Below are positions 28,072 through 47,611 of a stretch of 64,000 bases of DNA, piece by piece. The notes beneath the pieces were generated by a model, which had not been told where the DNA came from, did no database searches, and saw nothing but the letters and a program-made list of their open reading frames with translations. Every line of letters begins with the position of its first letter. The first letter of the stretch is position 1. Where the stretch lies: NCBI RefSeq assembly GCF_947501165.1, contig NZ_CANMUU010000001.1:496001-560000 (forward strand). Direction: 5' to 3'. The position numbers and the translations under genes were made by a program. The DNA is from an uncultured Allomuricauda sp. GTDB taxonomy: Bacteria > Bacteroidota > Bacteroidia > Flavobacteriales > Flavobacteriaceae.

Positions 28072-29478
28072 TTAAACGTTCGTAATAGCCATTACTTTTT
28101 TTTTAAAAAAGTTGGTCAACAATACTTCTTTTTCCATGTTTATCCCCCATAAGGCTTCATTTGACAAAATTCGAGATATGGTGAGTTCCACATCTTTAGA
28201 ACTCCAGGCCTCTTTGAAAAAAGAGGCAACTGTTTCGTCATCTTTAATGGGAATACTTTGGGATGCATGTTCTCCTTTGTAAAACACCATTAAGTAAGTG
28301 AAGGCAACTGCCAGACCTTCGGGTACCTGCTTGTAACTTTCTAAATAGTTCAAAATACTGGGCAAAACCCTTACTCTGAACTTAGATATGGAATTCAGAG
28401 AAATATCCAACAACTTATGCTTTATAAAGGGGTTTTTAAACCTTTCCAATACTTCATACGCATACGTTTCAAGTTCTTCTTTTGGCATATCCAGAGTGGG
28501 TATAATTTCCTTGAAAATGATTTGGTCAAGAAATTTCGCCATCTTTTCGTCCTCCACAACCTCTCGTACCTCTTTGAAACCATTCAAATAAGCAATAGGC
28601 ACCATGGCTGTGTGCGTACCATTCAAAATCCGAACCTTCCGGGTTCTAAATGGAGTCAAATCATTGGTAAATACTACATTCAACCCTGCTTCTTTAAATC
28701 GAAGAAGGTCTTCAAGTTTCTTAGGGCCTTCTATGACCCATAAATGAAAAGGCTCGGCCTTTACAACAAGATTATCCTCATAGTCCAGCTTCTCCTGAAT
28801 AGCCTGAATATTTTCTTTCGGAAAACCGGGAACAATTCTGTCAACCAAGGTGTTATAGAAAATAACACTACGTTCAACCCACTGAACAAAATCTTTTGAT
28901 AAATTCCAAAGTTCAATGTACTTCAGAACGCATTCTTTGAGCTTATCTCCATTTTTTTCAATCAATTCACAAGGAAGGATTTTTAATTCCTTTGGAGGAT
29001 ATCTATCAAAGCTGATAAAATGTTGATGCAACAAGGCAGTAAGTTTTCCGGGAAACGTTTTAGGAAGAGTTTTTGGATTATCATCCTTTTCATCAAAAAC
29101 GATTCCCGCTTCGGTAGTGTTGGACACGATAAACTCTAAATCCGGGTTTTCTGCGAGTTCTAAAAAAGCCTGATAATTCTCAAAGGGATTCAAGACACCT
29201 TCAATGGAAGTAATTAACCTGGTGGTTTGGGTTTTTATGCCTTTTTCTATGCCTTCAAGTAACACATGGTAAAGGCCCTCTTGTTCATTAATCCATGCTC
29301 CCATTCCTTTTTGTAGAGGTTGAACAATCTGAATGTTCCCATTAAAATGGGTTTTCTCATTAAGAATATCTACCATCCAATCCACAAAACCTCTCAAAAA
29401 ATTACCTTCGCCAAATTGAATGATTCGAATGGGCCGTTCTGGCACCATAGGCACCGTTTTTCTATTTAGTTTTTTCAT
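28072..29478 (-). CDS. uxaB: tagaturonate reductase (altronate oxidoreductase)
   Basis: 468 residues of the mannitol-dehydrogenase/UxaB family. The NAD-binding start is RPIRIIQFGEGNFLRGFVDW, followed by FIVSNTTEAGI, PGFPKENI and the active-site stretch RTRKVRILNGTHTAMVPIAY with the catalytic Lys and His. It reduces D-tagaturonate to D-altronate in the galacturonate branch, in the cytoplasm. It lies 12 nt after uxaC and is last in the leftward lacI-uxaC-uxaB operon, so it should be controlled by the LacI protein encoded with it. Confidence 0.93.
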   Translation of the reverse strand: MKKLNRKTVPMVPERPIRIIQFGEGNFLRGFVDWMVDILNEKTHFNGNIQIVQPLQKGMGAWINEQEGLYHVLLEGIEKGIKTQTTRLITSIEGVLNPFENYQAFLELAENPDLEFIVSNTTEAGIVFDEKDDNPKTLPKTFPGKLTALLHQHFISFDRYPPKELKILPCELIEKNGDKLKECVLKYIELWNLSKDFVQWVERSVIFYNTLVDRIVPGFPKENIQAIQEKLDYEDNLVVKAEPFHLWVIEGPKKLEDLLRFKEAGLNVVFTNDLTPFRTRKVRILNGTHTAMVPIAYLNGFKEVREVVEDEKMAKFLDQIIFKEIIPTLDMPKEELETYAYEVLERFKNPFIKHKLLDISLNSISKFRVRVLPSILNYLESYKQVPEGLAVAFTYLMVFYKGEHASQSIPIKDDETVASFFKEAWSSKDVELTISRILSNEALWGINMEKEVLLTNFFKKKVMAITNV

Positions 29479-29490
29479 GTCAACTATGAA

Positions 29491-30939
29491 TCAAAATCCG
29501 AAGTAGTCTTTGGCATTATAGTAGCAAATATCTGATACGATTTTCCCCAACCACTTCTCATCAGTTGGCAACTCACCATTTTGGACATCGGTCCCCAAAA
29601 GGTTGCACAAGATTCTACGAAAGTATTCGTGTCTTGGGAATGACAAGAAACTTCTTGAATCAGTTAGCATACCAATAAAACAACTTAACAGGCCTAAGTT
29701 GGAAAGGCTGTTCAATTGCTTTTCCATGCCATCTTTTTGGTCCAGGAACCACCAAGCAGAACCAAACTGCATTTTTCCTTTAACGCTACCGTCATTAAAA
29801 TTTCCTATCATACTGGCAAAAACTTCGTTATCCGATGGGTTTAAATTGTAGATAATGGTCTTGGTCAACTGATCGGTACTATCCAAAAGATTTAAAAAAT
29901 TGGCAAGGGGTCTGGCCTGTTGAAAATCACCGATACTGTCAAATCCCGTATCAGGGCCAAGCTTGGACAGCATTCTCTGATTGGTATTGCGTAAGGCACC
30001 CAAATGAAACTGCTGCACCCATCCAACCTCGTCATATTTTCTACTAAGATGGACCAAGGTCTCAAATTTGAAGTAAGCTATCTCTTTATAGGACAACTGT
30101 TTACCACTCAAAAGTTGTTGAAAGAGCAAGGAAGCATCAAAATCTCCTAAATCAAAGTTGTGAAACTGTTCCAATCCATGGTCTGCGCTCTTACAACCTA
30201 GTTCAGTAAAAAAAAGTATGCGTTGATATAGCGCTTGAACCAAATCCGAATATGTATTGATTTCGTAATCTACACATTCACCCAGTCGAGTTAGATACTT
30301 TATGTATTCTTCAGGTTCTTCCACCGTATAGGCCTTATCGGGTCTGAAGGATGGGAGTAGTTTTAGAGTAGGCTCTTGCCTCTGAAATTTCGCATGATCT
30401 CTTAAATCATCTACAGGATCATCAGTGGTTGCCACAACATCCACATTCATTTTTTTCAAAAGCCCTTTTGTCCTAAACTCCCTTTCTTGAAGAAGCTCTC
30501 CAGTAGTGTTATATATCTGCTTTGCATTGTTTGAATCAAGAAGCTCCGAAATACCAAAATATCTCTGGAGTTCCATATGCGTCCAATGATAAAGCGGGTT
30601 TCTAAGCGTATAGGGAACCGTTTTTGCCCACATCATAAACTTTTCTTCATCGGTAGCATCTCCAGTAATGTATTTCTCGTTAATCCCCAATGTGCGCATT
30701 GCTCGCCATTTGTAGTGGTCACCTTTTAACCATACTTGTGTACAGTTATCATATTGATGGTTTTCCGCGATTTCTATCGCAGGCAGATGATTGTGGTAAT
30801 CAATAATGGGCAAGAGTTTGGCAAAATCGTGGTAAAGTCTCTTGGCAAAATCATTCTGAAGCAGAAAATCTTCATCCATGAACTTGGAACTTGATTTGTG
30901 CAATCGATTGTACTGTATGTTCTTTTTGGACGATGCCAT
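29491..30939 (-). CDS. uxaC: glucuronate/galacturonate isomerase
   Basis: 482 residues. The UxaC start pattern FMDEDFLLQNDFAKRLYHDF and the metal ligands in PIIDYHNHLPA are clear, as are VWLKGDHYKWRAMRTLG and FLSFPRHEYFRRILC. It isomerises D-galacturonate to tagaturonate and D-glucuronate to fructuronate, so it serves both later branches of this island. The initiator at 30939 gives about 15 residues more than most homologues; ATG 30879 (MDEDFLL) is an alternative. Middle gene of the lacI-uxaC-uxaB operon. Confidence 0.94.
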   Translation of the reverse strand: MASSKKNIQYNRLHKSSSKFMDEDFLLQNDFAKRLYHDFAKLLPIIDYHNHLPAIEIAENHQYDNCTQVWLKGDHYKWRAMRTLGINEKYITGDATDEEKFMMWAKTVPYTLRNPLYHWTHMELQRYFGISELLDSNNAKQIYNTTGELLQEREFRTKGLLKKMNVDVVATTDDPVDDLRDHAKFQRQEPTLKLLPSFRPDKAYTVEEPEEYIKYLTRLGECVDYEINTYSDLVQALYQRILFFTELGCKSADHGLEQFHNFDLGDFDASLLFQQLLSGKQLSYKEIAYFKFETLVHLSRKYDEVGWVQQFHLGALRNTNQRMLSKLGPDTGFDSIGDFQQARPLANFLNLLDSTDQLTKTIIYNLNPSDNEVFASMIGNFNDGSVKGKMQFGSAWWFLDQKDGMEKQLNSLSNLGLLSCFIGMLTDSRSFLSFPRHEYFRRILCNLLGTDVQNGELPTDEKWLGKIVSDICYYNAKDYFGF

Positions 30940-30962: not shown

Positions 30963-31994
30963 TTACGATTTCTTTTTCAAGGATGAAGCCCTAACAATCA
31001 GTTCAGGTTGTAAGACCGTTTTCTTGGTGACGATTTTCTTTTTTTCTGAATTGAGGGCGTTGAAGAAAAGATTGGCAGCTGTATGTCCCATTTCTATAGG
31101 AAACTGATTCACCGAGGTTAAGGGAGGATCGGTGAAAGAGGTAAAAGGTTCATTCAAAAAACCAACCAAAGCTACATCCTGGGGTATTTTGAGTCCTTTC
31201 TCTTTTAAAACCTGCATAGCTCCCATGGCCGCATAGTCACTGGCAGAGAATATGGCATCAAAATCTGCACCACTGTTCAATAGATCTTGTGCATGCGAAC
31301 GCCCATCCTCAAGCTGAAGATTACCGCTAAAAACCAAAGCTACGTCCTGTTCAATGCCATGGTCCTCTAATGCATTCACATATCCACGATAGCGCTCCTT
31401 ATAAATATCTATTTTTCGTTCCGTTGTGAAATGTGCAATTCTAGTACATCCTTGTTCAATCAAATGGGAAGTAGCTAGGTAAGCACCTTGATAATCATCG
31501 ATTACAACTTGACTAGTTTGCAAGTTGGGCGTGGTTCTATCAAACAATACTAGGGGAAGTCCACGTTCCAATACCTGCTGGTAATGATCAAACCGCTGGG
31601 TATTTTTCCCAATAGAGGCAATTATTCCATCTACCCTTGCATTCAAAAAGGCTTTCACAGCGTTCTCTTCGTTATCAAATACCTCATTCGATTGACTGAC
31701 AATTACCCGATAATCCAAGGAATTTGCAACCTCTTCAACACCTCTAATGATGGATGAGAAAAAAGCACGATTTATAGTAGGAACCAACATTCCAATGAGT
31801 TGTGTGCGGCCACTTCGCAAAGCCGATGCTATTTGGTTGGGTTCGTAGTTAAGCTCCCGAGCCGTTTTAAGAACAGCCTTACGGGTGGTGTCACTTATCC
31901 TAGGATTCCCATTTAGAGCTCTCGATACCGTAGAAGCTGTAACATTCAACTTTTCCGCGATATCATGTATGGTAGTTTTTTTAGTGTTTTCCAT
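30963..31994 (-). CDS. LacI-family regulator of the uronate island
   Basis: 343 residues from ATG 31994 (ATG 32003 would add three). The N-terminal HTH with hinge helix reads TTIHDIAEKLNVTASTVSRA and NYEPNQIASALRSGRTQLIG; the rest is a periplasmic-binding-like sensor domain (ASIGKNTQRFDHYQQVLERG; SASDYAAMGAMQVLKEKGL). A degenerate copy of the island's palindrome lies 52 nt upstream (32046-32065), a strong copy at 32194-32213 and a perfect one at 47592-47611, so it probably represses itself and all four cargo operons until a pathway metabolite binds. The effector is not determinable here. Confidence 0.9.
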   Translation of the reverse strand: MENTKKTTIHDIAEKLNVTASTVSRALNGNPRISDTTRKAVLKTARELNYEPNQIASALRSGRTQLIGMLVPTINRAFFSSIIRGVEEVANSLDYRVIVSQSNEVFDNEENAVKAFLNARVDGIIASIGKNTQRFDHYQQVLERGLPLVLFDRTTPNLQTSQVVIDDYQGAYLATSHLIEQGCTRIAHFTTERKIDIYKERYRGYVNALEDHGIEQDVALVFSGNLQLEDGRSHAQDLLNSGADFDAIFSASDYAAMGAMQVLKEKGLKIPQDVALVGFLNEPFTSFTDPPLTSVNQFPIEMGHTAANLFFNALNSEKKKIVTKKTVLQPELIVRASSLKKKS

Positions 31995-32045
31995 TAGGTT
32001 CAACCGAACTTTCTACAAAAATACTTAGCTCTTATAATTATAAAT

Positions 32046-32065
32046 AAATGTAATCGATTGCGCAA
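32046..32065. promoter_or_regulatory. putative LacI operator, degenerate copy
   Basis: AAATGTAATCGATTGCGCAA matches 15 of 20 positions of the perfect palindrome at 47592-47611, with the ATCGATTGC core intact. Located 52 nt upstream of lacI, suiting autoregulation. Confidence 0.55.
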
Positions 32066-32193: not shown

Positions 32194-32213
32194 TTATGCA
32201 ATCGATTGCACAA
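32194..32213. promoter_or_regulatory. putative LacI operator for the receptor/hydrolase operon
   Basis: TTATGCAATCGATTGCACAA differs at one position from the perfect 20-bp palindrome at 47592; the inner 14 bases (32197-32210) are themselves a perfect palindrome. It lies 29 nt upstream of the TonB-receptor start, where a bound dimer would block transcription. Confidence 0.75.
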
Positions 32214-32242: not shown

Positions 32243-35110
32243 ATGAAGATGCTAACAATCAGAAAAACAATTGTCCCAATCTTGTTTTTATGTTTTGGTT
32301 TTGTCCTTTCCTGGGGCAACGAGCCTGACAAGAATTCTTCCTACGCTTTAGCTTTCCAATCATTTGGTGGCGTAAGTGGACGTGTTTTAGGAGAAGCAGG
32401 AGAACCACTTCCTGGTGCTTCGGTGGTGATTCGCCAGTTGGCTATTGGAACCGGCAGTTCTTTGGAAGGATTGTTCAATTTGCCTCGAGTTCCTTATGGA
32501 TCTCATGAAATTGAGGTTTCCTATATAGGTTTTGAACCTTATCGAACCACAATCGAAGTCAATTCCTCTTCCCTTTCTTTGGGAGATATTGTATTGCAAC
32601 CATCAGTTAACACCTTAGGTGAAGTAATTGTAACGGGAAGTTTGGAAGGACAGCAACGAGCTTTCAATCAACAGAAGAATGCAGACAATATCAAAACCAT
32701 TGTTTCAGCAGATTTAATCGGGCGTTTTCCAGATATTAATGTTGGAGAAGCCATGCAACGCGTTTCTGGTGTTACTATCGAGAGGGATAACGGTGAGGGA
32801 AGTATCGTAAAAATCCGAGGAACCCCACAAAACTTTACCACGGTATCCATAAACGGTGAGCAAATTCCAACTACGGATGAAGGTGGTGGTCGTACAGAAG
32901 GTCTTGCGCTAATTAGTGCCGACCAATTAGCTTCCATGGAAGTTAGCAAAGCGATTACTCCAGATATGGACGGTGACGCCGTGGGCGGTGCTATTAATCT
33001 AATAACACCAACGGCGGCTTCGGCCAAAGGAAGAATTAAAGGATCTATTGGGGGCGGATATAATGACCTTTTTCGAAGAGGAAGTCAAATCGTTAGATTA
33101 AAATATGACCGAAGATTTGCCGATAACAAATTTGGAATATTGTTTGGAGGTAGCTACTACAACACAGTAAACGGTGAAGAGCGGTTTGAAGCAACCTATC
33201 GCAATCGAAGAATCGGTAGCGAAGATGACCCTAATTCATTTAGGGCCAATGTCATTGATGATTATCGGTTACGTCCTTTACTGAATGAAAGGACTCGAAT
33301 AGGTGTAAATGCGACATTTGACTATCGTTTTAACGACAACTCTCAGGTAATCTTCAAAGCCATATACAATAAACTTGAAGATGAGTCTCTAAGAAGAAGG
33401 ACTCGTTTTCGTCCAAGGAACAACTACAATGACCCATTAAATCCCGACGTTGCCGGTCCAGATAATGATGTACGTGTGAGGCGTGACATTAATGATCGCG
33501 TAATTGATAGGGAAAACATCACAATAACCTTTGATGGAAAGCATCCGCTTGGAACTTTTGGACAACTTGATTATGGAATCAACTACACTCGTTCGGAAAG
33601 GGTTTTACGAAGTGATCGCTTTGTTTTCCGGGAACGCGATTTAACCCTACGACTGACCAGAGATGGGGATTTCACCTTGTTCTCTTCTCCAGATTTCGAC
33701 TTTGAGGACTACGCAGCCTATGATTTCAATTCGTTTCAACAAGATAAACCCATATTGAATCGAGGCGACAACACGGTAGCCAAAATAAACCTTACGGTTC
33801 CTTTTAATCTTGGAAAAAACGCGGGAGAATTCAAAACAGGAGGAAAATATCGAGACTTGGATAATATCCGAAGAAGAAACACCATAGAGTACAATGAATT
33901 CAACGGTCCGTACAATCTCACTCAGGTCTTTGACAACAATGAAAGTTCCATTTTTGATGGTCGCTACCAAATGGGGCGTTTTCCAGATCCACAAAGAGCC
34001 ATGCAGCATTTTATGGATAACCAAGCGGCCTATCAAATTGATGAAAATGCTTCTCGAATTAACAGTGAGAGCTTCTTTTTTGATGCGGGTGAAGACGTTT
34101 ATGCAGCTTATTTCCAAGGAAAACTACAGTTTAATAAATTCAGGGTTTTGGCTGGTGTACGTTATGAGAAAACCGATGTGAATTATGATGCATTAAGGCT
34201 GGAAATAGAACCGCCGGCTCAAGATGGAGCTCCGGCTGTTCCAATTTCATCAGAACCAGTTTCTGGAAGTAATTCTTATGACTTCTTTTTACCTATGGTA
34301 CATCTTAGGTATGAACTTAATGACCGAACGAACCTTAGGTTTGCGTATACCCAATCGTATGCAAGACCTGAACTTCAAGATTTGGTCCCATCACAAAATA
34401 TCAACTTTGCAGATCAATTGTTGACCACTGGAAATCCAGAGCTGCTTCCTGCAAGTGCAGATAATCTTGATTTGCTTTTTGAATCCTATTTAAAGGGAGC
34501 AGGGGTTATCTCTGGAGGAATTTTCTACAAGAGAATTGAAAACTTCATTTTTGATCAGATTTCCAATGTCGATTTCAACAATGATGTATTCCTTCAAACC
34601 GAACCGATTAATGGGGATGAAGCTGAGTTGTTGGGTATAGAGTTGAACTTCACCAAAAAACTTGACTTTTTGCCTGGATTTCTATCAGGTCTTGGGGTCT
34701 TTTTAAACTATACTTATGTTGATTCCAATAGCAGTTTCGAGTTTTTTGATGAGGATACAGGCGAAACCCTAGTAAGAGAAGATGTTTCTTTCGTAGGGCA
34801 AGCAGATAATACATGGAATGCAGCCCTTTCATATGATTTAGGCGGATTCAGTGCTAGGGCTTCATTGAACTATAATGGACGTTCGCTTTTAAGTTTTTCG
34901 GATGACCCAGAACAGGATTTTTTCTTGGAAGAACGCTATCAGTTGGATGTAAACGCATCCCAGAAGATTTCTGATAATTTGACCGTCTTTGTTGAGTTCG
35001 TCAATCTTACCAACGAACCTAACTTAGAGTTCCAGTCTGTAAGAAGCCAGGTCACTAATTATGAGATTTATGATTGGTCTGCTCGGTTTGGTCTAAACTT
35101 TAAATTCTAA
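32243..35110 (+). CDS. TonB-dependent outer-membrane receptor, putative oligogalacturonide importer
   Basis: 955 residues. A signal peptide precedes a carboxypeptidase-regulatory-like domain (about 40-120; GEPLPGASVVIRQLAIGTGS), then the plug with GEVIVTGSLEGQ, VKIRGTPQNFTTVSINGEQI and MDGDAVGGAINLITP, and a 22-strand barrel ending in aromatic Phe (ARFGLNFKF). It lacks the classical SusC pairing: no SusD gene follows; instead a beta-helix lipoprotein gene starts 5 nt later. It should move uronic-acid oligomers across the outer membrane, driven by TonB-ExbBD encoded elsewhere. The substrate is inferred from the GH28 genes in the operon. First gene behind the 32194 operator. Confidence 0.9.
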   Translation: MKMLTIRKTIVPILFLCFGFVLSWGNEPDKNSSYALAFQSFGGVSGRVLGEAGEPLPGASVVIRQLAIGTGSSLEGLFNLPRVPYGSHEIEVSYIGFEPYRTTIEVNSSSLSLGDIVLQPSVNTLGEVIVTGSLEGQQRAFNQQKNADNIKTIVSADLIGRFPDINVGEAMQRVSGVTIERDNGEGSIVKIRGTPQNFTTVSINGEQIPTTDEGGGRTEGLALISADQLASMEVSKAITPDMDGDAVGGAINLITPTAASAKGRIKGSIGGGYNDLFRRGSQIVRLKYDRRFADNKFGILFGGSYYNTVNGEERFEATYRNRRIGSEDDPNSFRANVIDDYRLRPLLNERTRIGVNATFDYRFNDNSQVIFKAIYNKLEDESLRRRTRFRPRNNYNDPLNPDVAGPDNDVRVRRDINDRVIDRENITITFDGKHPLGTFGQLDYGINYTRSERVLRSDRFVFRERDLTLRLTRDGDFTLFSSPDFDFEDYAAYDFNSFQQDKPILNRGDNTVAKINLTVPFNLGKNAGEFKTGGKYRDLDNIRRRNTIEYNEFNGPYNLTQVFDNNESSIFDGRYQMGRFPDPQRAMQHFMDNQAAYQIDENASRINSESFFFDAGEDVYAAYFQGKLQFNKFRVLAGVRYEKTDVNYDALRLEIEPPAQDGAPAVPISSEPVSGSNSYDFFLPMVHLRYELNDRTNLRFAYTQSYARPELQDLVPSQNINFADQLLTTGNPELLPASADNLDLLFESYLKGAGVISGGIFYKRIENFIFDQISNVDFNNDVFLQTEPINGDEAELLGIELNFTKKLDFLPGFLSGLGVFLNYTYVDSNSSFEFFDEDTGETLVREDVSFVGQADNTWNAALSYDLGGFSARASLNYNGRSLLSFSDDPEQDFFLEERYQLDVNASQKISDNLTVFVEFVNLTNEPNLEFQSVRSQVTNYEIYDWSARFGLNFKF

Positions 35111-35114
35111 CACT

Positions 35115-36623
35115 ATGAGAATAAAAGATAAACTCTTGCGCACAGGTATCGCAATCATTACCTTGGTTCTGGTCTTTTCTTGCAATGACGATGATGATTC
35201 ATTTGAACCACCAGCCTTCGATTCCCCTGAAATAGAACTTTCCATAGATAGTGGATCATTCCGTATTGGCCAAACCATTAGAGTAACAGCTGAATATGAA
35301 GCATCCGCCCTGTTTAGGGAGTTTGTGGTGCAAAGGGGCAATTCTGTAATAGAGCGTATAACCTATCCAGAAAGAACAGAGGGAGAAGATGACTTCACAT
35401 TGGAGTTCTTAATAACGGATGACCTTTTGGGCACGACCCAAACCTTTACGTTTACCGTTACCGATTCCTTTGGTGAGTCGGAAAGTACAACCTTTACGGC
35501 AACGGTTTCTGAAGTAGAGCCCGCCTTTACTTTTGAGGATGTGGAAATCAACGGAACTACCTTTAGACAAGTAACTGGAAGGATTAACTTTGATGAGACC
35601 TTTGATAAGGATAACCTTTGGTTGCTCAATGGCGAAGTTGAAGTAGACGATATTACAACCTTGACTATTGAAGAAGGTACCACAGTATACGCATTGGATG
35701 AGAATACCGAGTTAAATGTGCGCATTGGAGGAACCCTGTTAGCTGAAGGAACTCTAGAAGAACCTATAGTATTCACTTCTATCAACGCCGCTCCCAATCA
35801 ACCTGATGAGCCTGATAATGGGGATTGGATTGGTGTCGTCCTAAGAGGGGATGATACCCCGGACGGCAACTCGGGAATTTTGAGATATGTGCGCATTGAG
35901 AATGGCGGAAACGGCGATGAGGCACTCCAACTGCGACAAGTAGGTGGCGCAACCACCATTGACTTTGTTCAAGTTCACAATGCAGATGATACCGGAATCC
36001 GTATGCGAGGAGGTTTTGTAAACCTAAAACATATCTTGGTAACCAAACCAGATGATCGTGGTATACGCTACAGTGATGGCTGGGAAGGCAATGGACAGTT
36101 TTGGGTTATTCTTACAGATGTTGATGATAGCGAAGGTATTCTCGGAAGAGACACCGATGAATCCCCTAGAAACTCCGATGCTATAATGTCCAACGTCACG
36201 GTCATTGGTCCACTTATCTTTGGTGATGGAGCTGGAGACACTGATGGGGTCCAAATACGGGATGGAGGCCAAGGAGAATTCCATAACTTTATTGTTACTG
36301 GTTTTGACGATTCTTTTAGAAACAGAAGTGATGACGGCGATATGATTATTAGAAATTCCGCCGTATTTGGTAATGGTCAGGCGGGAGATGAGGACGGACT
36401 GCATAGCAGTATTGATGATGAATACTTAGAGCCAGCAAATCAGAACTCGGTAGACGAAATAACCTTAACGGATACTTTCATTGGGGTTTCTAACACCAAT
36501 TCATCGGATGCTTCGACACTAGGCGATTTCTTCGATGCTGTGAATTTCGTGGGAGCCGTTTCACCAGATGATGATTGGACCTTAGGATGGACCATCAATT
36601 TTAGTGGTACACCGAGAGAATAA
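35115..36623 (+). CDS. surface lipoprotein with beta-helix domain (SusD substitute?)
   Basis: 502 residues. Lipobox LVFSC (Cys about 23) is followed at once by NDDDD, an acidic run like the lipoprotein export signal that sends Bacteroidota lipoproteins to the cell surface. Residues about 35-140 look like an immunoglobulin-type domain (IGQTIRVTAEYEASALF). Residues about 155-480 form a right-handed parallel beta-helix of the pectate-lyase-superfold kind, with rungs such as LNVRIGGTLLAEGTLEEPIV, SGILRYVRIENGGNGDEALQ and DGVQIRDGGQGEFHNFIV. I see no certain lyase or hydrolase triad. It lies 5 nt after the receptor, the slot of SusD, so it is probably a glycan-binding partner. Confidence 0.85.
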   Translation: MRIKDKLLRTGIAIITLVLVFSCNDDDDSFEPPAFDSPEIELSIDSGSFRIGQTIRVTAEYEASALFREFVVQRGNSVIERITYPERTEGEDDFTLEFLITDDLLGTTQTFTFTVTDSFGESESTTFTATVSEVEPAFTFEDVEINGTTFRQVTGRINFDETFDKDNLWLLNGEVEVDDITTLTIEEGTTVYALDENTELNVRIGGTLLAEGTLEEPIVFTSINAAPNQPDEPDNGDWIGVVLRGDDTPDGNSGILRYVRIENGGNGDEALQLRQVGGATTIDFVQVHNADDTGIRMRGGFVNLKHILVTKPDDRGIRYSDGWEGNGQFWVILTDVDDSEGILGRDTDESPRNSDAIMSNVTVIGPLIFGDGAGDTDGVQIRDGGQGEFHNFIVTGFDDSFRNRSDDGDMIIRNSAVFGNGQAGDEDGLHSSIDDEYLEPANQNSVDEITLTDTFIGVSNTNSSDASTLGDFFDAVNFVGAVSPDDDWTLGWTINFSGTPRE

Positions 36624-36666: not shown

Positions 36667-37890
36667 ATGAATAGATTAGAATTCATTAAAACGATTTCAT
36701 CGGCAACCTTGGCAACAGGGTTGCCCTTTCCTATCTGGGGCCTGAAATCCAATGAATGTTCGATAGCCATGTTTACGGAGATGGCAAAGGATGATGACTT
36801 TATAATCAAGGACATTGACACTTTTATGCTTCGCAAGGCACTTTTTGTTTCGGTTGAACTCAACAATGGCATCAAAGGATGGGCTGAAGCCATGCCCAAT
36901 GACAAACGTAGTTCCCGTACCTTAATAGAAAAAACCTTAAAGAACTACTTTGAAGGCACCAACATCTTCGACATAGAAAAGACCTGGGACTATTGCATCA
37001 AGTCCGAATATGATTTAGGTCCCGGAGGTCTGCTCACCTATTCATTATCGGGAATTGATTGCGCCATTTATGATGCCATGGGAAAAGCTACCCAGAAACC
37101 CGTTTACGAACTTCTCGGGGGTAAACTGAGGGATTCCGTGGAGATATACGCCAGTTTTACAAGAGATGTCTATCCTACACCAGAGCAGGCAGCGGCCAAG
37201 GCCAAAGCATTGGTCGAAGAAGGATATAAAACGCTGAAATTTCGCATGCGTTGGGGACTCGAAAACCAAGACCCTCCCAACGACAATACCGTTGATTTCG
37301 CTCGGGCGCTTCGCGAAGCTATTGGTGCCGATATTCAATTGGCTATGGATGCGAACATGGGACATACCCAAAAAAGGGCCATTATCTTGGGTAAAGAACT
37401 TGAGGAATTCAACTTGGCATGGTGGGAAGAACCTACAGCGCCTTACGATTACGAAGCCATCAAGGCAATAGTGGATAACGTGAATATCCCCATCGTTTTT
37501 GGCGAACACGCCTATACGGTAGAACAGATTCAGCATTTATTGACCTATGGGGGGTCATGGGCGGTAAATCCAGATTTGCTAAAGTGCGGAGGCTTTACCG
37601 GAGGAAAACGGATTGGTGACTTTATTGCCGAAAAAGGGGTGAAACTGGTAGCCCATAATTCTAGACCCTCTTTGAGCACGGTTTGTATGCTCCATTGGGT
37701 TTGCGCCACAAAAATGGCGACGCTTCCACAGGAGTTTGCGCTACGTGAAAAAGCGCCTGGGGCTTTTGATTGTTTAACCGGTTTTCCGGAATTTAAAAAT
37801 GGTCGTTTGCATATTAGCAATAGACCAGGGTTGGGTGTGGAGGTAGATGAAGATCAGGTGAGGGCTTACGATAAAAAATACACCAAATGA
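36667..37890 (+). CDS. exported enolase-superfamily (mandelate racemase-like) enzyme
   Basis: 407 residues with both enolase-superfamily domains. Metal ligands by alignment are D228 (MDANMG), E255 (WWEEP) and E280 (FGEHAY); a His-Asp dyad may be H330 (AHNSRPS) with D303 (NPDLLKCGG). The usual KxK of the second strand reads K191-F-R193, so one general base is changed. The N-terminus NRLEFIKTISSATLATGLPF looks like a signal sequence of NRRxFIKT (Tat-like) type with the second Arg lost; the substrate would then be met in the periplasm. Relatives dehydrate or isomerise sugar acids (galactonate, galactarate and lactones), so a uronate or aldonate is likely but the reaction is not fixed. ATGA overlap with the GH28 gene. 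Confidence 0.82.
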   Translation: MNRLEFIKTISSATLATGLPFPIWGLKSNECSIAMFTEMAKDDDFIIKDIDTFMLRKALFVSVELNNGIKGWAEAMPNDKRSSRTLIEKTLKNYFEGTNIFDIEKTWDYCIKSEYDLGPGGLLTYSLSGIDCAIYDAMGKATQKPVYELLGGKLRDSVEIYASFTRDVYPTPEQAAAKAKALVEEGYKTLKFRMRWGLENQDPPNDNTVDFARALREAIGADIQLAMDANMGHTQKRAIILGKELEEFNLAWWEEPTAPYDYEAIKAIVDNVNIPIVFGEHAYTVEQIQHLLTYGGSWAVNPDLLKCGGFTGGKRIGDFIAEKGVKLVAHNSRPSLSTVCMLHWVCATKMATLPQEFALREKAPGAFDCLTGFPEFKNGRLHISNRPGLGVEVDEDQVRAYDKKYTK

Positions 37891-39215
37891 GATATGCGGT
37901 ATGGCTGATTCCTGTCTTTGGTTTATTTCTCTTGATATCCTGTAGAGGGCAAAGTCAAAAAGAGCTCAATATTCTCGATTTTGGTGCGGTTCCCGATGGT
38001 AAGACGATGAATACACAAGCCATTCAGTCCACAATTGATAAGGCGTTAAAATCAAAAGGAAAAGTTATCATCCCGAAGGGGACCTTTTTAACCGGAGCAT
38101 TGACATTGGGTCCTGATATCACTTTACAAATTGATGAAGGAGCGACACTCTTGGCCAGTCCCAACATGAAAGATTATCCTGAAAGACATTTCATTTCGGC
38201 CCCTTATGCCGATAGTCTCATAATTAAAGGTAAGGGAACCATTAATGGTAACGGAACCGCTTTTTATGATAAGGATTGGAAGTTTACGGAACGACCGCAA
38301 CCTTGGATTGTCATCAGTGATGCCAAAGGCGTTTCAGTAACCGGAATACACTTTGAAAATAGTCCGTCGCATACCCTTAACTTCAACTTTTGTGATGGTG
38401 TTACCGTGGATAGTATTTCCATAAAGAACAATCCCCAGAGTCCCAATACGGATGGAATAGACATTCGAAATACCAGAAATATTGCAGTAACCAATGCGGA
38501 CATTCGAACGGGAGATGATGCCATTTGTCTTAAAGTAACTTCCAAAGCAGACCTTTGGCATGATCCAAAAGGCAATCCCAGACCTAGGACAGTGGAAAAC
38601 GTTTTGGTAAAGCATTGCTATTTGGAGAGTGATGACTCTGCCCTAAAACTGGGAACGGGCAGTGGCCATTTTACAGAGAACATAGTATTTGAAGATATTA
38701 CCATTCGTAAAACCCGCTATGCGATGGCTTTGTTTATGATGGATGGTGGGGTCTATCGGGACATTCTCTTTAAAGATATTGATGCGGAAACCGGAGCTCG
38801 TCATGCACAGGAATATGGTATTTTTATAGATATTCATCAGCGAAAAGAGGATTCTCCCGTGGGTCAAATAGAAAATATTCGGTTTGAGGATTGTTCCATT
38901 GCCACAAACGGTATTTTTTATATGTCAGGCCATCCAGCGCAAATGATCGATGATATTCAACTGGAAAATGTGAATGTAACTTTCATGGGGCATCTGGATA
39001 ATTCTTCATGGAAAAAGCCAAAGGGAAACAAAAAAATTAAACAGTGGGCCTCGACATCCGATTTTGTTCGTGAAAAGGGAAAGTTCATACTTGCTGATGC
39101 GAAAAAGGTCCGATTGAAGAATGTAACCTTTAACCAAGTCCCGAATGATTCCATCCCTTTGTTTTGGAAGCACAATGTTTCCTTGGATACCCTAAATGTC
39201 AAAATCATCCCATGA
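37887..39215 (+). CDS. GH28 polygalacturonase, lipoprotein
   Basis: 442 residues. Lipobox LLISC (Cys 19), then a right-handed beta-helix. The GH28 catalytic acids are present: D189 in SPNTDGIDI, D210 and D211 in RTGDDAICLK; the downstream substrate motif is GTGSGHFTEN and the RIK-like IRKTRY. It hydrolyses alpha-1,4 galacturonide bonds; being a lipoprotein it probably acts in the periplasm or on the cell surface on oligomers brought by the receptor. Starts inside the stop of the enolase-like gene (ATGA), so the operon is translationally coupled. Confidence 0.92.
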   Translation: MRYAVWLIPVFGLFLLISCRGQSQKELNILDFGAVPDGKTMNTQAIQSTIDKALKSKGKVIIPKGTFLTGALTLGPDITLQIDEGATLLASPNMKDYPERHFISAPYADSLIIKGKGTINGNGTAFYDKDWKFTERPQPWIVISDAKGVSVTGIHFENSPSHTLNFNFCDGVTVDSISIKNNPQSPNTDGIDIRNTRNIAVTNADIRTGDDAICLKVTSKADLWHDPKGNPRPRTVENVLVKHCYLESDDSALKLGTGSGHFTENIVFEDITIRKTRYAMALFMMDGGVYRDILFKDIDAETGARHAQEYGIFIDIHQRKEDSPVGQIENIRFEDCSIATNGIFYMSGHPAQMIDDIQLENVNVTFMGHLDNSSWKKPKGNKKIKQWASTSDFVREKGKFILADAKKVRLKNVTFNQVPNDSIPLFWKHNVSLDTLNVKIIP

Positions 39216-40465
39216 CCCGTAAACTATTCCTTGCTATTCCACTCTTTTGGTGTTTTCTGGGTTGTGCTCAAAGGGAATCCCTCGATTTAGACGAAGCATA
39301 TCAACAAAAAATAGAGATTTCATTGAATCGCGGCATAGAACATGCAGGAAGCGTTTGTTTGGATGCTGCTGGAAAAGCGAAAGGGGATTACGAAATGATA
39401 TCCGGTACCTGGCTGGAGTACGAACCGGCCTGGCACACAGGGCAACTGATTCAAGGACTTTTGGATGCCTACCAAGTGACCCAAAACGAGGACGCTCTAA
39501 ACTATGCTATAAAAGGGGGGAATTGGTGGGTAAGTCTACAATTTCCTGTAGGACACCCCCTAGCCGGTTACATGAATGCTATTCATGGGGCAAGCGTAGG
39601 AAATCTAATCAACACGACTACCATTACCGATGGAACACCGGGACTCTTTGACCTAAGCGAGGTTACAGGAGACACTAAATATGCTGAGGTCGCCAGTTCA
39701 GCAGGAGAATGGATTTTGGACAACCTCTATCTTCCCGAGCATCGGTTAAGCTATAATATTGTGGATCCGGAAACCGGAGAAATCTGGAAAGAAAAAAGTC
39801 CACATGCGCAACACCAAGGTCATGAAATCACCATTAAACAGGTGGCGCGGCCCAATGCCGAGGGGTATTTGTCGAAAGATATGTTTGAGTTTACGGGAGA
39901 GGAACTTTATAAAAATGCCTTTTTGGAGGTTTGCGATGGACTAGTCACCAGTCAAAGTGACAATGGCTTCTGGATGGATTTTGAGCCCAATGACCCAAAT
40001 ACTGGAAAAATCCATGCACGATTCAATACTTGGAATGCGGAGGCGCTAATTGAAGCCTACACCTTGACCGAGAATCAAAAATACTTGGATGCTGCCCTTA
40101 AAACAGGCCATGGACTGGCCTCCATCCAACAAAAAAATGGAGTGATTTTTTACTTAAGCTATACCGATGGCTCTGTGGATGATCGCTCTCCCTGTGGTTC
40201 AGGGACTTCTTTCGCGGGAATTCTTTGGCTACGATTACTGGAATTGGGTCATGTGGATTTCAAGGCCAACATTAAAAAAGCACTGGACTTTACCCTAAAA
40301 AATCAATTTTCAGCTGAACACCCGGATGAAAACTTGGCAGGAGGCTATTACGAGATTCGCCAAAAAGCAAAAGACAACGGAAAAATGAAACTCATCTATC
40401 GCGACATTGCCACAGCTTTTGGATTACGATTTCTAAGTGATGTGCACCAATTTGAATTTCAGTAA
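39212..40465 (+). CDS. (alpha/alpha)6-barrel protein, putative uronyl hydrolase or other pectin-acting enzyme
   Basis: 417 residues from ATG 39212, overlapping the GH28 stop by 4 nt. Lipobox FLGC near residue 15. The body is a series of paired helices with GTWLEYEPAWHTGQLIQGLL, AGYMNAIHGASVGNLINTTT, HAQHQGHEITIKQVARPN, GFWMDFEP and ARFNTWNAEALIEAYTLTEN, which is the layout of six-hairpin glycosidases, epimerases and some polysaccharide lyases. It lacks the clear GH88/GH105 signatures I would expect, so I leave the family open. The context (two GH28, one GH2) argues for an enzyme on pectin fragments or their substituents. Confidence 0.7.
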   Translation: MTRKLFLAIPLFWCFLGCAQRESLDLDEAYQQKIEISLNRGIEHAGSVCLDAAGKAKGDYEMISGTWLEYEPAWHTGQLIQGLLDAYQVTQNEDALNYAIKGGNWWVSLQFPVGHPLAGYMNAIHGASVGNLINTTTITDGTPGLFDLSEVTGDTKYAEVASSAGEWILDNLYLPEHRLSYNIVDPETGEIWKEKSPHAQHQGHEITIKQVARPNAEGYLSKDMFEFTGEELYKNAFLEVCDGLVTSQSDNGFWMDFEPNDPNTGKIHARFNTWNAEALIEAYTLTENQKYLDAALKTGHGLASIQQKNGVIFYLSYTDGSVDDRSPCGSGTSFAGILWLRLLELGHVDFKANIKKALDFTLKNQFSAEHPDENLAGGYYEIRQKAKDNGKMKLIYRDIATAFGLRFLSDVHQFEFQ

Positions 40466-40468
40466 GTT

Positions 40469-41875
40469 ATGAGGTTTTCGAGAGGTATATCACAATGCGA
40501 TTTAAAAACAAAAACAATATTTGGGATTATTCCAATACTGTTCAGTTTAGCATGTAACCTGCAACCTAAGGATGATTTTACCAAAGAAAAGGCCCAACAA
40601 ACCATTGCTAAGGCTTGGTCAGTGACCTATCCGGATATTTTGGAAGCTATTCAAGTGCCTTCCTTTCAGGATACGACAGTAGTTATTAAGGACACCACGG
40701 ATTTTAGAAACAACATCAACAAGACCATCTCCCAACTTTCCGAAGATGGAGGCGGTACGATAAAAGTCAATCCTGGAAGATACAATATCAAGGGAAGTGT
40801 TTTTTTGGCATCAAACATCCGATTGCATCTGGAGAACGGGGCAGAACTTTGGTTTTCGCCGAATCCTTCAGATTATTTACCTGTTGTAAAATCGCGATGG
40901 GAGGGTACCTTTCTCATGAATTATTCGCCACTTATTTACGCAATTGATGTGGAGAACATAGCGATTACTGGAAAGGGGTTGATCAATGGGCAGACCAAAC
41001 AAATATGGTACACCTGGAAAGAAAAACAGGATGCCGATAAGAAACAGCTGAGACAAATGGGTAATGATGAAATCCCTTTGGAAAAACGGGTTTTTGGAGC
41101 GGGACATTATTTGAGGCCCTCGGCCATTGAATTCATCAACTGCAAGAACGTTCTTTTGGAGGATTTCAGTATCAAGGGGTCCCCGTTTTGGACAATTCAT
41201 CCCGTACTTTCGGAAAACATTACCATCCGTTCGCTGAATATTGGGGCAGGCACTACCAATGACGACGGGATTGATCCCGAAAGCTGCAAAAATGTTCTTA
41301 TTGAAAACTGTGTTATAAGTACGCATGATGATTGCGTGGCGCTAAAAGCAGGTCGTGACCAGGATGGATGGCCGTATCCTCCCAATGAAAATATCATCGT
41401 TCGAAACAATAGCTTCAAGACCGAAGTGGGAAGTGGATTTTGTATAGGTTCCGAAATGTCAGCAGGGGTTCGCAACGTTTTTGTGGAGAACTGCGAATTG
41501 GTATCCAGTGGAAAGCATGCTTTTCAGTTTAAAAGCAATCCCGACCGGGGAGGCTTTATCGAAAATGTTTTTATACGAAACATCAAGGTTGAAGCCGTGA
41601 AATATGGATTTGAGTTCACCACGGATTATAAAGGCTGGCGGGGAAACCAATACTTCACCACGTATCAAGATTTTTATTTCCAGAATATTCAAATCGAAGA
41701 AGCCACGGGCAAATCCATTGTCATCAAAGGAAGACCTGAAGAGCCCATTCGAAAAGTATATTTTGAAAACTGTGCCATTCACCAATCTCCACAATTGGAG
41801 GTGGTTTCGGAAGCTTCGCAAATACACTTTGAAAACACCAAAATCAACACGAACATTTTGCCCACAAACGATTGA
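40469..41875 (+). CDS. GH28 exo-type polygalacturonase, lipoprotein
   Basis: 468 residues, only distantly like the first GH28. A signal with SLAC lipobox at about residue 29 follows an unusually long N-terminal stretch. Catalytic acids appear in TNDDGIDPES and STHDDCVALKAG, where the usual GDD is HDD; the motif GSGFCIGSEMSAGVRN is that of exo-acting galacturonidases. Extra loops (GGFIENVFIRN; TTDYKGWRGNQYF) would narrow the cleft, in keeping with release of mono-galacturonate from chain ends. It starts 3 nt after the preceding stop. Confidence 0.9.
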   Translation: MRFSRGISQCDLKTKTIFGIIPILFSLACNLQPKDDFTKEKAQQTIAKAWSVTYPDILEAIQVPSFQDTTVVIKDTTDFRNNINKTISQLSEDGGGTIKVNPGRYNIKGSVFLASNIRLHLENGAELWFSPNPSDYLPVVKSRWEGTFLMNYSPLIYAIDVENIAITGKGLINGQTKQIWYTWKEKQDADKKQLRQMGNDEIPLEKRVFGAGHYLRPSAIEFINCKNVLLEDFSIKGSPFWTIHPVLSENITIRSLNIGAGTTNDDGIDPESCKNVLIENCVISTHDDCVALKAGRDQDGWPYPPNENIIVRNNSFKTEVGSGFCIGSEMSAGVRNVFVENCELVSSGKHAFQFKSNPDRGGFIENVFIRNIKVEAVKYGFEFTTDYKGWRGNQYFTTYQDFYFQNIQIEEATGKSIVIKGRPEEPIRKVYFENCAIHQSPQLEVVSEASQIHFENTKINTNILPTND

Positions 41876-41878
41876 CCT

Positions 41879-43732
41879 ATGAAAAGAATACGTCTTGGCT
41901 TTTTTCTGTTTTTTCTATTTGGAATGCAGTTTACATGGTCGCAGGAACCGCTGCTCCAAAATGCATACAGCAGACCTTCGACCTTGCTTAATGGCAACTG
42001 GAAGTACGTTATCGACCCCTACGATACAGGGTATCGCAACCATAGAAACTGGCTTCCCTTTGATGAGGCGGAATCCACAAAAGCATCCGCAAAGCCCTAT
42101 TACACCGATAAGGTCATAGAAAACCGCTGGGACCGTGTGGAGTACAATTTCAATACCTCCCCAGAGATTTTAGTGCCTGGGGATTGGAACAGCCAATTTG
42201 AAAAACTGGAGTATTACGAGGGTGCTATTTGGTATCGCGCCACTTTCGATTATAACCTAAAAGAGGGGACTGAAGTGTTTCTGTATTTTGGAGCTGCGAA
42301 TTACCAGACCGATGTATACCTCAACGGGGAAAAGGTTGGTCAGCATTTGGGAGGATTCGATCCGTTCAACTTTGAGGTCTCCGAAAAATTAAAATCAAAA
42401 GATAATTCTTTGGTGGTTCGTGTGGACAACAAAAGGGAAAAACATCATGTGCCGAACTTTACGACGGACTGGTGGAATTATGGCGGTATTACCCGCGATG
42501 TGAAGTTGATAGCAGTGCCCAAAACCCATATTCAGGATTATAAAATTCAACTGGACCCTAAAAACGCAGACCTAATCAAGGGCTACATTCAAGTATCGAA
42601 TGGAGCACAGCAAAATGTATCGATTAGAATCCCGGAAGCAAAGATTGAGGAAACCTTTCGTCTGGATGAAACCGGAAAAGCGGAATTTCAAATTTCCGCG
42701 AAGCGTATCAAAAAATGGTATCCCAAACGCCCCAAATTGTATACGGTTGAAATCACTTGTGGTGAAGATATGCTAACGGATGATATTGGTTTCAGAACCA
42801 TTGTCACAGATGGGCCAAATATCCTATTGAATGGAAAATCCATCTTCCTCCGGGGCATTAGTCTCCATGAAGAAAACCCCATAAAGGTTGGGAGAGCAAA
42901 TTCTATGGAAGAAGCTCAAATGTTCTTCGGATGGGCACAAGAGCTCAACTGCAATTTTGTGCGGTTGGCTCACTATCCCCATAATGAACATATGCCCCGT
43001 TTGGCGGATAAAATGGGCATTTTACTTTGGGAAGAAATACCGGTGTATTGGGGCATCGACTATGAAAATCCAGTGGCTTTTGCCCAGGCCAAATCACAAT
43101 TGGAAACCCTGGTACATCGCGATAAAAACCGTGCAAGTGTTATTGTATGGTCGGTGGCCAATGAGACACCAGAAGTTCCTTCGCGATTGAAGTTTTTAAG
43201 GGATTTAAAAAAGATTGCCCTCGCGATTGACGATACCCGATTTATAAGTGCTGCGCTAGAAAGGGATGAAAAAAGCACTGCTGATACTGTTAAGATTCCC
43301 GACCCTTTCGCCGAAGATGTAGATATGATTGCCTGCAATGAATATATCGGCTGGTATTCAGGCTTACCGAAGCGATGTTCGGAAGTGACATGGGAACTGC
43401 CTAGTAATAAACCATTTTTTGTCAGTGAGTTTGGGGGTGGGGCATTGTACAACCATCACGGGGATAAGTTAACGAGATGGACCGAAGAATATCAGGAGTA
43501 TTTGTATGTGGAGCAACTTAAGATGCTCCGGAAGATTCCCGCCTTGCGAGGTATAACCCCTTGGATTTTGGCCGATTTTCGTTCACCCAGAAGAAACTTA
43601 CCTTTAATTCAAGATGGTTGGAATCGAAAAGGGCTAATTTCCAATGGAGGTTTTAAAAAGAAAGCCTTTCGTGTTTTGAAAGCGTATTATGAGGAGATGG
43701 AGAAAATCTATGATTATTCGATAAAGGACTAA
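41879..43732 (+). CDS. GH2 beta-glucuronidase-type glycosidase
   Basis: 617 residues with signal peptide (LGFFLFFLFGMQFTWSQ). The GH2 sugar-binding, Ig-like and TIM-barrel domains are in order. Acid/base E429 lies in WSVANETP, nucleophile E517 in VSEFGGGA, and RLAHYPHNEHM and ILWEEIPVYWG are typical of beta-glucuronidases. N582-R-K584 (WNRKGLI) keeps the NxK motif that in family glucuronidases binds the uronate carboxylate. It thus probably removes a beta-linked uronic acid from pectin side chains. Last gene of the rightward hydrolase operon; a hairpin terminator lies beyond. Confidence 0.9.
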   Translation: MKRIRLGFFLFFLFGMQFTWSQEPLLQNAYSRPSTLLNGNWKYVIDPYDTGYRNHRNWLPFDEAESTKASAKPYYTDKVIENRWDRVEYNFNTSPEILVPGDWNSQFEKLEYYEGAIWYRATFDYNLKEGTEVFLYFGAANYQTDVYLNGEKVGQHLGGFDPFNFEVSEKLKSKDNSLVVRVDNKREKHHVPNFTTDWWNYGGITRDVKLIAVPKTHIQDYKIQLDPKNADLIKGYIQVSNGAQQNVSIRIPEAKIEETFRLDETGKAEFQISAKRIKKWYPKRPKLYTVEITCGEDMLTDDIGFRTIVTDGPNILLNGKSIFLRGISLHEENPIKVGRANSMEEAQMFFGWAQELNCNFVRLAHYPHNEHMPRLADKMGILLWEEIPVYWGIDYENPVAFAQAKSQLETLVHRDKNRASVIVWSVANETPEVPSRLKFLRDLKKIALAIDDTRFISAALERDEKSTADTVKIPDPFAEDVDMIACNEYIGWYSGLPKRCSEVTWELPSNKPFFVSEFGGGALYNHHGDKLTRWTEEYQEYLYVEQLKMLRKIPALRGITPWILADFRSPRRNLPLIQDGWNRKGLISNGGFKKKAFRVLKAYYEEMEKIYDYSIKD

Positions 43733-47591: not shown

Positions 47592-47611
47592 TTGTGCAAT
47601 CGATTGCACAA
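47592..47611. promoter_or_regulatory. perfect 20-bp palindrome, putative LacI operator
   Basis: TTGTGCAATCGATTGCACAA is a perfect inverted repeat with the central CG-type core usual for LacI-family sites. It sits in the short divergent gap between uxaA (21 nt away) and kdgK (98 nt to its ATG), so one bound dimer could control both operons. Near copies stand at 32194 and 32046. Confidence 0.82.

Follow-up and report, generated by a model that had tools for sequence, protein, structure and literature searches.

A β-helix lipoprotein paired with a TonB-dependent receptor in a hexuronate locus of an uncultured Allomuricauda: a candidate uronic-oligosaccharide importer

Can a TonB-dependent receptor be served by a surface lipoprotein other than SusD in the uptake of uronic glycans? 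The locus that raises this question lies in a window of 64,000 nucleotides (positions 496,001 to 560,000 of contig NZ_CANMUU010000001.1, RefSeq assembly GCF_947501165.1) from an uncultured Allomuricauda sp., to which all coordinates refer unless a contig is named. A gene for a TonB-dependent receptor (P0001; 32243-35110) is followed on the same strand by one for a lipoprotein (P0002; 35115-36623), with 4 bases between the stop of the former and the start of the latter; coordinates, frames and spacing given in a first-pass annotation of this DNA were correct. We propose, with a probability of about 60 %, that the pair is an outer-membrane importer of uronic-acid oligosaccharides in which P0002 would be the surface capture partner, employing a basic face of its β-helix. 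The ligand would probably be galacturonate oligomers.

The receptor and its lipoprotein partner

In an NCBIfam profile search, P0001 matched TIGR01782 with 517 bits (cut-off 310), while the SusC/RagA model TIGR04056 reached only 66.1 bits, under its cut-off of 368. The receptor is therefore no SusC. No SusD family appeared among the Pfam matches of P0002 up to E 1, and no match to P0001 was found at E 1e-5 in a sequence search of solved structures. We therefore rejected SusC/SusD membership of the pair, P0001 being of the TIGR01782 type and P0002 lacking SusD homology. The first-pass annotation had placed the lipoprotein where SusD should be. The partner is indeed a non-SusD protein, but the phrase is not quite apt, as a receptor that is no SusC does not strictly miss a SusD.

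P0002 carries a lipobox (LVFS preceding C23), followed by the acidic stretch NDDDD. In Bacteroidota, an acidic run after the lipidated cysteine is a surface-export signal, and surface display of P0002 is thus predicted. The lipobox pattern was matched in 11 of 13 sequences (P0002 and 12 orthologues), in which on average 3.8 of the next six residues are acidic; in the alignment, the two sequences missed (loci L040 and L043) have CSDDDD and CSDDDL. The run had been pointed out earlier and is present as described, with similar runs in the orthologues. Among the lipoproteins of the operon it is particular to P0002 (mean 3.8, n = 11, versus 0.4-0.6, n = 5 to 10).

An AlphaFold2 model of P0002 (13 sequences) shows a signal helix, immunoglobulin (Ig)-like strands at residues 39-131 and a right-handed β-helix at about residues 137-420, with a mean predicted local distance difference test score (pLDDT) of 75; residues 423-502 of the model are unreliable. 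As judged by VIA-align, residues 133-450 match the alginate epimerase AlgG with a Z of 22.5 (3.5 Å, 266 residues), and also AlgE modules and polygalacturonases of glycoside hydrolase (GH) family 28 (Z about 19), with ~10% identity throughout. The adhesin PfbA has the same β-helix fold (Z 19.6). On the modelled structure, the matches to AlgG, AlgE and GH28 thus mark a common fold and no family assignment. The solenoid that had been read from the sequence is supported by the model and by the fold comparison. A Foldseek search with the entire model returned mostly Ig-like matches in the PDB, none at E 0.001 or better, and 13 low-quality matches at that level in a viral library, some of them tailspikes and pectate-lyase-like phage proteins. 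Two chance-level matches (E 0.13 and 0.45) came from a sequence search of solved structures with P0002.

The arrangement is conserved beyond what chance would give. A scan of genome contigs yielded 12 orthologous loci in Flagellimonas/Allomuricauda, Croceivirga, Aquimarina and a Flavobacteriaceae strain, the best segments being 41-95% identical; the 95% identical orthologue belongs to Flagellimonas meridianipacifica DSM 25027. All 12 have the receptor followed by the β-helix lipoprotein, and all 12 have a LacI gene; uxaB is found in 11 and uxaC in 10, and 11 have one or both of the GH28 genes, some absences being contig ends (L038, L044). True gaps are the missing uxaC in L040, the missing first GH28 in L048 and the missing neighbouring enolase-superfamily gene in L046-L048. 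Two more distant loci have related contents: L118 (genome G399) with LacI, receptor, a short-chain dehydrogenase/reductase (SDR), two enolase-superfamily genes, lipoprotein and GH28, and L119 (G168) with LacI, a mannitol-dehydrogenase-family gene, receptor, lipoprotein, UxuA and GH28. In both, two genes separate the receptor from the lipoprotein.

An acidic site with arginine replacements

Relatives of P0002 are widespread. At E ≤1e-5 it matches 103 of 120 genomes of its taxonomic family (own paralogue included), and profile searches found matches in at least 88 of 296 phylum genomes at 1e-20 and in at least 217 of 295 class genomes at 1e-28. Across 46 loci, 12 of which are the orthologues, 42 have an adjoining TonB-dependent receptor in the same orientation (37 with the receptor first, 5 with the lipoprotein first), and the other four hold relatives without a lipobox; outside the orthologues, adjacency is found in 30 of 34 loci. 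Receptor and lipoprotein also adjoin in 15 of 20 phylum-level regions, two further ones having both in a common gene cluster and three lacking a flagged receptor. Among 10 class-level regions, seven have them adjacent (the receptor of L211 weakly flagged), one does not, and in two the lipoprotein gene was missed by open reading frame calling (L209, L216). To call the lipoprotein a distinct class of importer partner, as had been done, was thus an overstatement, given pairs in 42 of 46 Bacteroidota loci and published cases in phosphate scavenging (PMC8115612, PMC2996285).

P0002 is homologous to the common-type β-helix lipoproteins, with which it shares an alignment and a tree. In the β-helix tree, the 13 orthologues group together (99), as do 46 common-type rows (95); L050_9321, L118 and L135 fall unresolved between the groups, and L119 joins L050_7745 on a long branch. 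The receptor tree splits 16 rows (window, 12 close loci, L050, L118 and L119) from 44 common-type rows with a Shimodaira-Hasegawa-like approximate likelihood ratio test (SH-aLRT) value of 100. Both trees are quick searches with midpoint roots and SH-aLRT values as sole support, and L119, L050_7745 and L135 are long branches in them. Judging from these comparisons, P0002 is a diverged member, in a sugar-locus branch, of a widespread family of receptor-paired β-helix lipoproteins.

The branch differs from the rest at a defined site. We collected 131 β-helix domain segments (domain rows, some from one protein and some from near-identical species): 107 are acidic at positions 296 and 318, 16 have R or K at 296 and 8 fit neither description. 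As columns 296/318 and column 296 define the acid and basic types, only the choice of letter is informative there. All 107 acid-type segments have D292, D293, E296, D314 and D318, and nearly all D315 (106) and E343 (102), with D345 in 85. In two proteobacterial plasmid relatives with tandem helices (L227, L228), all 4 domains retain the eight residues. This stacked acidic site (DDxxE, DDxxD, E) is defined by our analysis and not by published papers. At the same positions P0002 reads D292 T293 R296, D314 R315 R318, L343 and R345, so that four of the eight are arginine and two keep their aspartate. R296 and R318 are found in 13 of 13 sequences of the window and its 12 orthologues, R315 and R345 in 11 each; R402 and R404 are likewise present in all 13. 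L050 and L118 also have R296 and R345. R382 is no part of the switch, because both types have it (in the common type, 84 of 107 segments). In the model, the arginines would stack on successive coils.

The replacement changes the charge of this face. The mean net charge of three coils is +3.1 for the 16 segments of the basic type (range 0 to +5) versus -6.9 for the 107 of the acid type (range -9 to -4). Since columns 296 and 318 define the classes, we repeated the comparison without them and obtained +1.1 (-2 to +3; n = 16) versus -4.9 (-7 to -2; n = 107). The neighbouring sheet is alike in both types (+0.4, +0.6). As the acidic site is broken, the alignments suggest that whatever metal or catalytic chemistry it serves in the relatives is absent from P0002, which does not prove the protein inert. 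A site that is near-invariant in relatives and not kept in P0002 fits a binding protein, and the term "binding-only" is plausible on these grounds.

Eight loci (L068, L076, L078, L079, L083, L084, L135, L136) were left out of the orthologue residue alignment, and L050_7745 is in neither group. In the fresh search for the 131 segments, L083 and L035 (the L068 gene) are of the acid type; the segments fitting neither type include L078, L079, L084, L135, L136, L033 (the L076 gene), L008 (the G119 cluster) and L091 (the L119 gene, from a GH28 locus).

Several relatives are of interest in their own right. The genome itself has both forms, as an acid-type receptor/β-helix pair lies by a response regulator and a histidine kinase (L049; C1:1220500-1238500). 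In L050 (G119), a receptor is followed by two tandem β-helix lipoproteins, of which the first is of the arginine form and the second very divergent, and by purple-acid-phosphatase-like and melibiase-like genes; the cluster adjoins a SusCD pair. Relatives of 700-1000 amino acids with at least two β-helix domain matches include L055, L056, L058, L061, L068, L083, L120, L227 and L228. L076, L078, L079 and L084, without lipobox or adjoining receptor, contain QQE[KR]GI[IV]G in their N-termini and form a separate subgroup.

The uronate locus and its regulation

The surrounding genes (Table 1) make this a hexuronate/galacturonan locus. Allowing up to 2 mismatches, the window contains four copies of a palindromic operator-like site, TGCAATCGATTGCA, versus 0.23 expected, and none of 100 shuffles reaches four. 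Two such sites in the gap between LacI and receptor genes are present in 12 of 12 orthologous loci; the paralogue locus L049 has none. Because these LacI-type sites, kept in the orthologues, link the pair to the uronate genes, receptor and P0002 probably belong to the uronate regulon of this species group. The site at 30899 falls within the called start of uxaC (30879-30939), which suggests translation from a downstream ATG (MDEDFLL).

Table 1 Features of the locus. Strand is given as +, - or, for palindromic sites, a point.
Feature	Coordinates	Strand	Basis
UxaB (tagaturonate reductase) and UxaC (uronate isomerase)	28072..30939	-	Pfam/NCBIfam profiles
Operator-like site close to uxaC start, 1 mismatch	30899..30912	.	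palindrome scan
LacI-family regulator, divergent from receptor	30963..32003	-	Pfam/NCBIfam profiles
Second operator-like site, LacI-receptor gap, 2 mismatches	32049..32062	.	palindrome scan
Palindromic operator-like site TGCAATCGATTGCA, upstream of receptor, 0 mismatches	32197..32210	.	palindrome scan
P0001, TonB-dependent receptor of TIGR01782 type, 955 aa: CarboxypepD_reg domain, plug, barrel	32243..35110	+	profile matches, trees
P0002, surface-type lipoprotein, 502 aa: Ig-like and right-handed β-helix domains	35115..36623	+	sequence, profile searches, model
Lipobox Cys23 and acidic run NDDDD, putative surface-export signal	35181..35198	+	sequence, orthologue alignment
Ig-like domain, residues 39-131	35229..35507	+	AlphaFold2 strand assignment
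β-Helix, residues about 137-420	35523..36374	+	AlphaFold2 model, fold comparison
Arginines on successive coils: R296, R315, R318, R345 (relatives: E296, D315, D318, mostly D345)	36000..36326	+	alignments
Enolase-superfamily sugar-acid dehydratase	36667..37890	+	Pfam/NCBIfam profiles
GH28, polygalacturonase PglB-like, under equivalog cut-off	37887..39215	+	Pfam/NCBIfam profiles
Unclassified α/α-barrel enzyme, fold like cellobiose 2-epimerase and GH88/GH105	39209..40465	+	Pfam, model
GH28, closest NCBIfam model α-galacturonidase BT4155, under cut-off	40469..41875	+	Pfam/NCBIfam profiles
GH2, AqGalA homologue (7vqm, 1109 bits)	41879..43732	+	solved-structure sequence search
Operator-like site between uxaA-like and KdgK-like genes, 0 mismatches	47595..47608	.	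palindrome scan

Regulation also bears on a second reading, in which the pair imports phosphate or organophosphate and stands in a uronate locus by chance, taking up phosphate-bearing uronic glycans. Membership of P0002 in its family speaks for it. Among 74 lipoprotein loci, 28 have a PhoB, PhoR, PitA or porin O/P marker, 14 a uronate/GH28 marker, none both and 32 neither; the Pho markers rest on crude identity cut-offs, and "phosphate-type" is a group label that is not established for each member. Furthermore, in a larger receptor tree the window clade lies inside a 20-row group (SH-aLRT 100). Among ten regions of this group, hand-picked from 61 matches besides the window and G119, 3-phytase is a neighbour in four, and alkaline phosphatase, tyrosine phosphatase and a response regulator in one each; the remaining three have a second receptor, no Pfam family or an FAD oxidoreductase. 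Against this stand the broken acidic site, the operator-like sites upstream of the receptor, the lack of a Pho marker in all 14 loci with a uronate/GH28 marker, and the separate acid-type pair in the same genome (L049). We regard a phosphate importer as highly improbable here. In L200, L201, L202 and L205, receptors related to P0001 adjoin 3-phytase genes, a case of partner swapping within one receptor subfamily.

The substrate of the locus can be judged from its enzymes. Among solved structures, the GH2 has a close homologue in 7vqm, an entry named GH2 beta-galacturonate AqGalA. Since the GH28 enzymes, the AqGalA-like GH2 and the uronate genes occur together, the substrate is most likely, from these assignments, a galacturonate-rich oligosaccharide with α and perhaps β linkages. 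The earlier proposal of pectic oligomers thus holds insofar as the locus is built for uronate/galacturonate oligomers, but the match of the GH2 to AqGalA indicates that the substrate may be no ordinary pectin. Downstream of the GH2 are genes that we take to resemble UxuA, an SDR, UxaA, KdgK and 2-keto-3-deoxy-6-phosphogluconate aldolase, followed by a tripartite ATP-independent periplasmic (TRAP) transporter, the DctP of which was confirmed. The hydrolases are lipoproteins without an acidic run or have other signals, and are therefore probably periplasmic.

Three further genes deserve mention. The α/α-barrel enzyme has fold matches (Z about 25-27) to cellobiose 2-epimerases and GH88/GH105 (model pLDDT 71) and conflicting modest Pfam matches, with GH127 and polysaccharide lyase family (PL) 10 over cut-off and GH88 just under. 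It lacks a sequence relative in the PDB at E 0.01, its mean column identity across 11 orthologues is 82%, and it may represent a new family of glycoside hydrolases or epimerases. The enolase-superfamily dehydratase has, by eye, a signal-like N-terminus, unusual for a cytoplasmic enzyme. Finally, a gene that looks like a site-specific recombinase by eye (26769-27710) adjoins uxaB; L037 has another, 27% identical, near the same place, so that this may be an insertion spot.

SusD genes are remote from the locus. The nearest match to PF07980 (SusD) in the genome, C1:421952-422707, lies about 105 kb from the receptor, and both GH28 genes of the genome are within this locus. Ten proteins scanned from five of the six SusD regions of the genome include rhamnosidase, LacZ-type, sulfatase and GH65 proteins and no GH28 or pectate lyase; the one PL1 match in the genome is weak and lies outside the locus. 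In three of six orthologue genomes, the two GH28 genes of this locus are likewise the only ones, and in a fourth there is a third GH28, separated by about 48 kb from the closest of the SusD matches listed for that contig.

These data also touch the reading that P0002 is a mere surface accessory, such as an adhesin or polymer-binding protein, with the receptor importing alone or together with a remote SusD. Numerous receptors need no lipoprotein partner for import, the β-helix fold of P0002 recurs in the adhesin PfbA, and the genome does have other SusD genes. However, direct adjacency in 12 of 12 orthologous and 30 of 34 other loci argues for a closer bond, and the receptor and β-helix trees both set the uronate group apart. 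An accessory role is thus very unlikely.

Proposed function and comparison with known systems

Several observations weigh against a uronic-oligosaccharide importer with P0002 as its capture partner. P0002 is very acidic overall (isoelectric point 4.05), and the acidic site is replaced only in part, D292 and D314 each being kept in 11 of 13 sequences. The orthologue of L048 has a net charge of 0 over the three coils, and the relative in the GH28 locus L119 reads L296 and H318, so that the full arginine set is not required in such a locus. The gap of L118 has no operator-like site, and the single one in that of L119 has 2 mismatches. The lipoprotein is found at E ≤1e-60 in 7 of 71 genus genomes (counted by lipoprotein match alone, irrespective of receptor adjacency), which makes it an accessory trait. 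Two of the six orthologue genomes have an additional GH28 gene at most 9 kb away from a SusD gene, and SusCD may therefore share the work there; in the present genome, the nearest SusD about 105 kb off and the presence of both GH28 genes here support the proposed SusD-independence. Furthermore, the partner gene in this receptor subfamily is often an enzyme, and the residues R260, E262, K305 and R402, invariant in nine sugar-branch sequences, could from their conservation be catalytic.

The last two points keep alive the alternative that P0002 is a surface enzyme, i.e., a divergent β-helix lyase, hydrolase or epimerase that trims uronan before import by means of conserved Arg/Lys. In its favour, P0002 has the fold seen in alginate epimerases, GH28 enzymes and polysaccharide lyases (fold matches, about 10% identity), and receptors akin to P0001 are found next to genes for phytase or phosphatase. 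Moreover, no other lipoprotein of the operon has an acidic run, so that, apart from P0002, a surface depolymerase is not apparent in it. Yet no Pfam or NCBIfam family matched P0002 over its cut-off. R260 and E262 are also frequent in common-type segments (87 and 89 of 107) and may therefore be structural. A GH28-like active site was sought at the Asp pairs 291-292 and 313-314, which we take to resemble GH28 motifs in similar spacing. It was rejected, as profile comparison with GH28 gave 2.9% probability and the pairs vary between orthologues, being lost in those of Aquimarina. The earlier statement that P0002 has no obvious catalytic triad thus holds as far as these searches reach, and we consider an enzymatic role unlikely.

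For the proposed importer, the following route is conceivable. P0002 on the cell surface would catch a uronic oligomer with its basic β-helix face and hand it to the TonB-dependent receptor, a role that SusD or the β-propeller BtuG plays elsewhere. In the periplasm, the oligomer would be cut by probably exo-acting enzymes (the two GH28, the β-galacturonidase-like GH2 and the α/α-barrel enzyme), and the TRAP transporter would pass the products across the inner membrane into the hexuronate pathway. More tentatively, and with the odds somewhat against it, the β-helix may be a further fold for lipoprotein lids on TonB-dependent transporters, and one family may use it in two versions: an acidic one, probably cation-binding, that serves phosphate compounds, and one with arginines that serves uronic glycans. 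The exchange would have taken place at the same coil positions, making a direct binder of carboxylates out of a possibly metal-dependent protein.

If the proposal is true, glycan import in Bacteroidota is not always SusD-based, which suggests that in some marine flavobacteria a SusCD-based search for loci would overlook the uptake of galacturonate oligomers. It would also open a large uncharacterised family to study at the level of single residues, with the near-invariant acidic site as a target for mutagenesis and P0002 as its natural counterpart.

Known systems offer several points of comparison. One involves InterPro entry IPR011050, the pectin-lyase fold. For the Pho regulon of Flavobacterium johnsoniae, a published account describes the lipoproteins FI, FII and FIII, of which FII is assigned IPR011050, is phosphate-regulated and lies beside phoBR (PMC8115612). 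It places two low-phosphate lipoproteins downstream of low-phosphate receptors, and its authors remark on a weak resemblance to polygalacturonase and on a likeness to a Caulobacter lipoprotein (PMC8115612). By genomic context, and with no alignment to the Fjoh sequences, FI, FII and FIII would belong to the same broad family as P0002. However, the sampled relatives from Pho contexts carry the acidic site, whereas P0002, from a LacI/uronate locus, has half of the site replaced by arginines.

The Caulobacter surface lipoprotein ElpS (cc0170) is encoded next to the TonB-dependent receptor cc0171, and a functional interaction was proposed in 2010; ElpS is linked there to phosphate starvation and to release dependent on the type II secretion system (PMC2996285). 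The likeness lies in the receptor-adjoining lipoprotein; we compared it via the proteobacterial relatives L227 and L228, which keep the acidic site, and not via ElpS itself. In BtuBG of Bacteroides, a non-SusD surface lipoprotein forms the lid of a TonB-dependent transporter (PMC10404256). The ligand there is vitamin B12, whereas the lid complex of P0001/P0002 is putative.

The pectin locus of Gramella flava likewise combines galacturonan/hexuronate functions with uxaABC-type genes in a marine flavobacterium, but contains SusCD. According to its authors, this SusCD was neither up-regulated nor detected on pectin, on which one susC-susD system overall was up-regulated (PMC5306329). No receptor/β-helix pair for uronate or pectin was found in the open-access literature, a weak negative; as far as the literature searched shows, what is new is that such a pair serves a uronate locus, by its genomic setting, and that arginines replace residues of a near-invariant acidic site. 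Compared with SusCD itself, the presumed task of capture and import is alike, whereas the receptor, of the TIGR01782 type, and its non-SusD partner differ.

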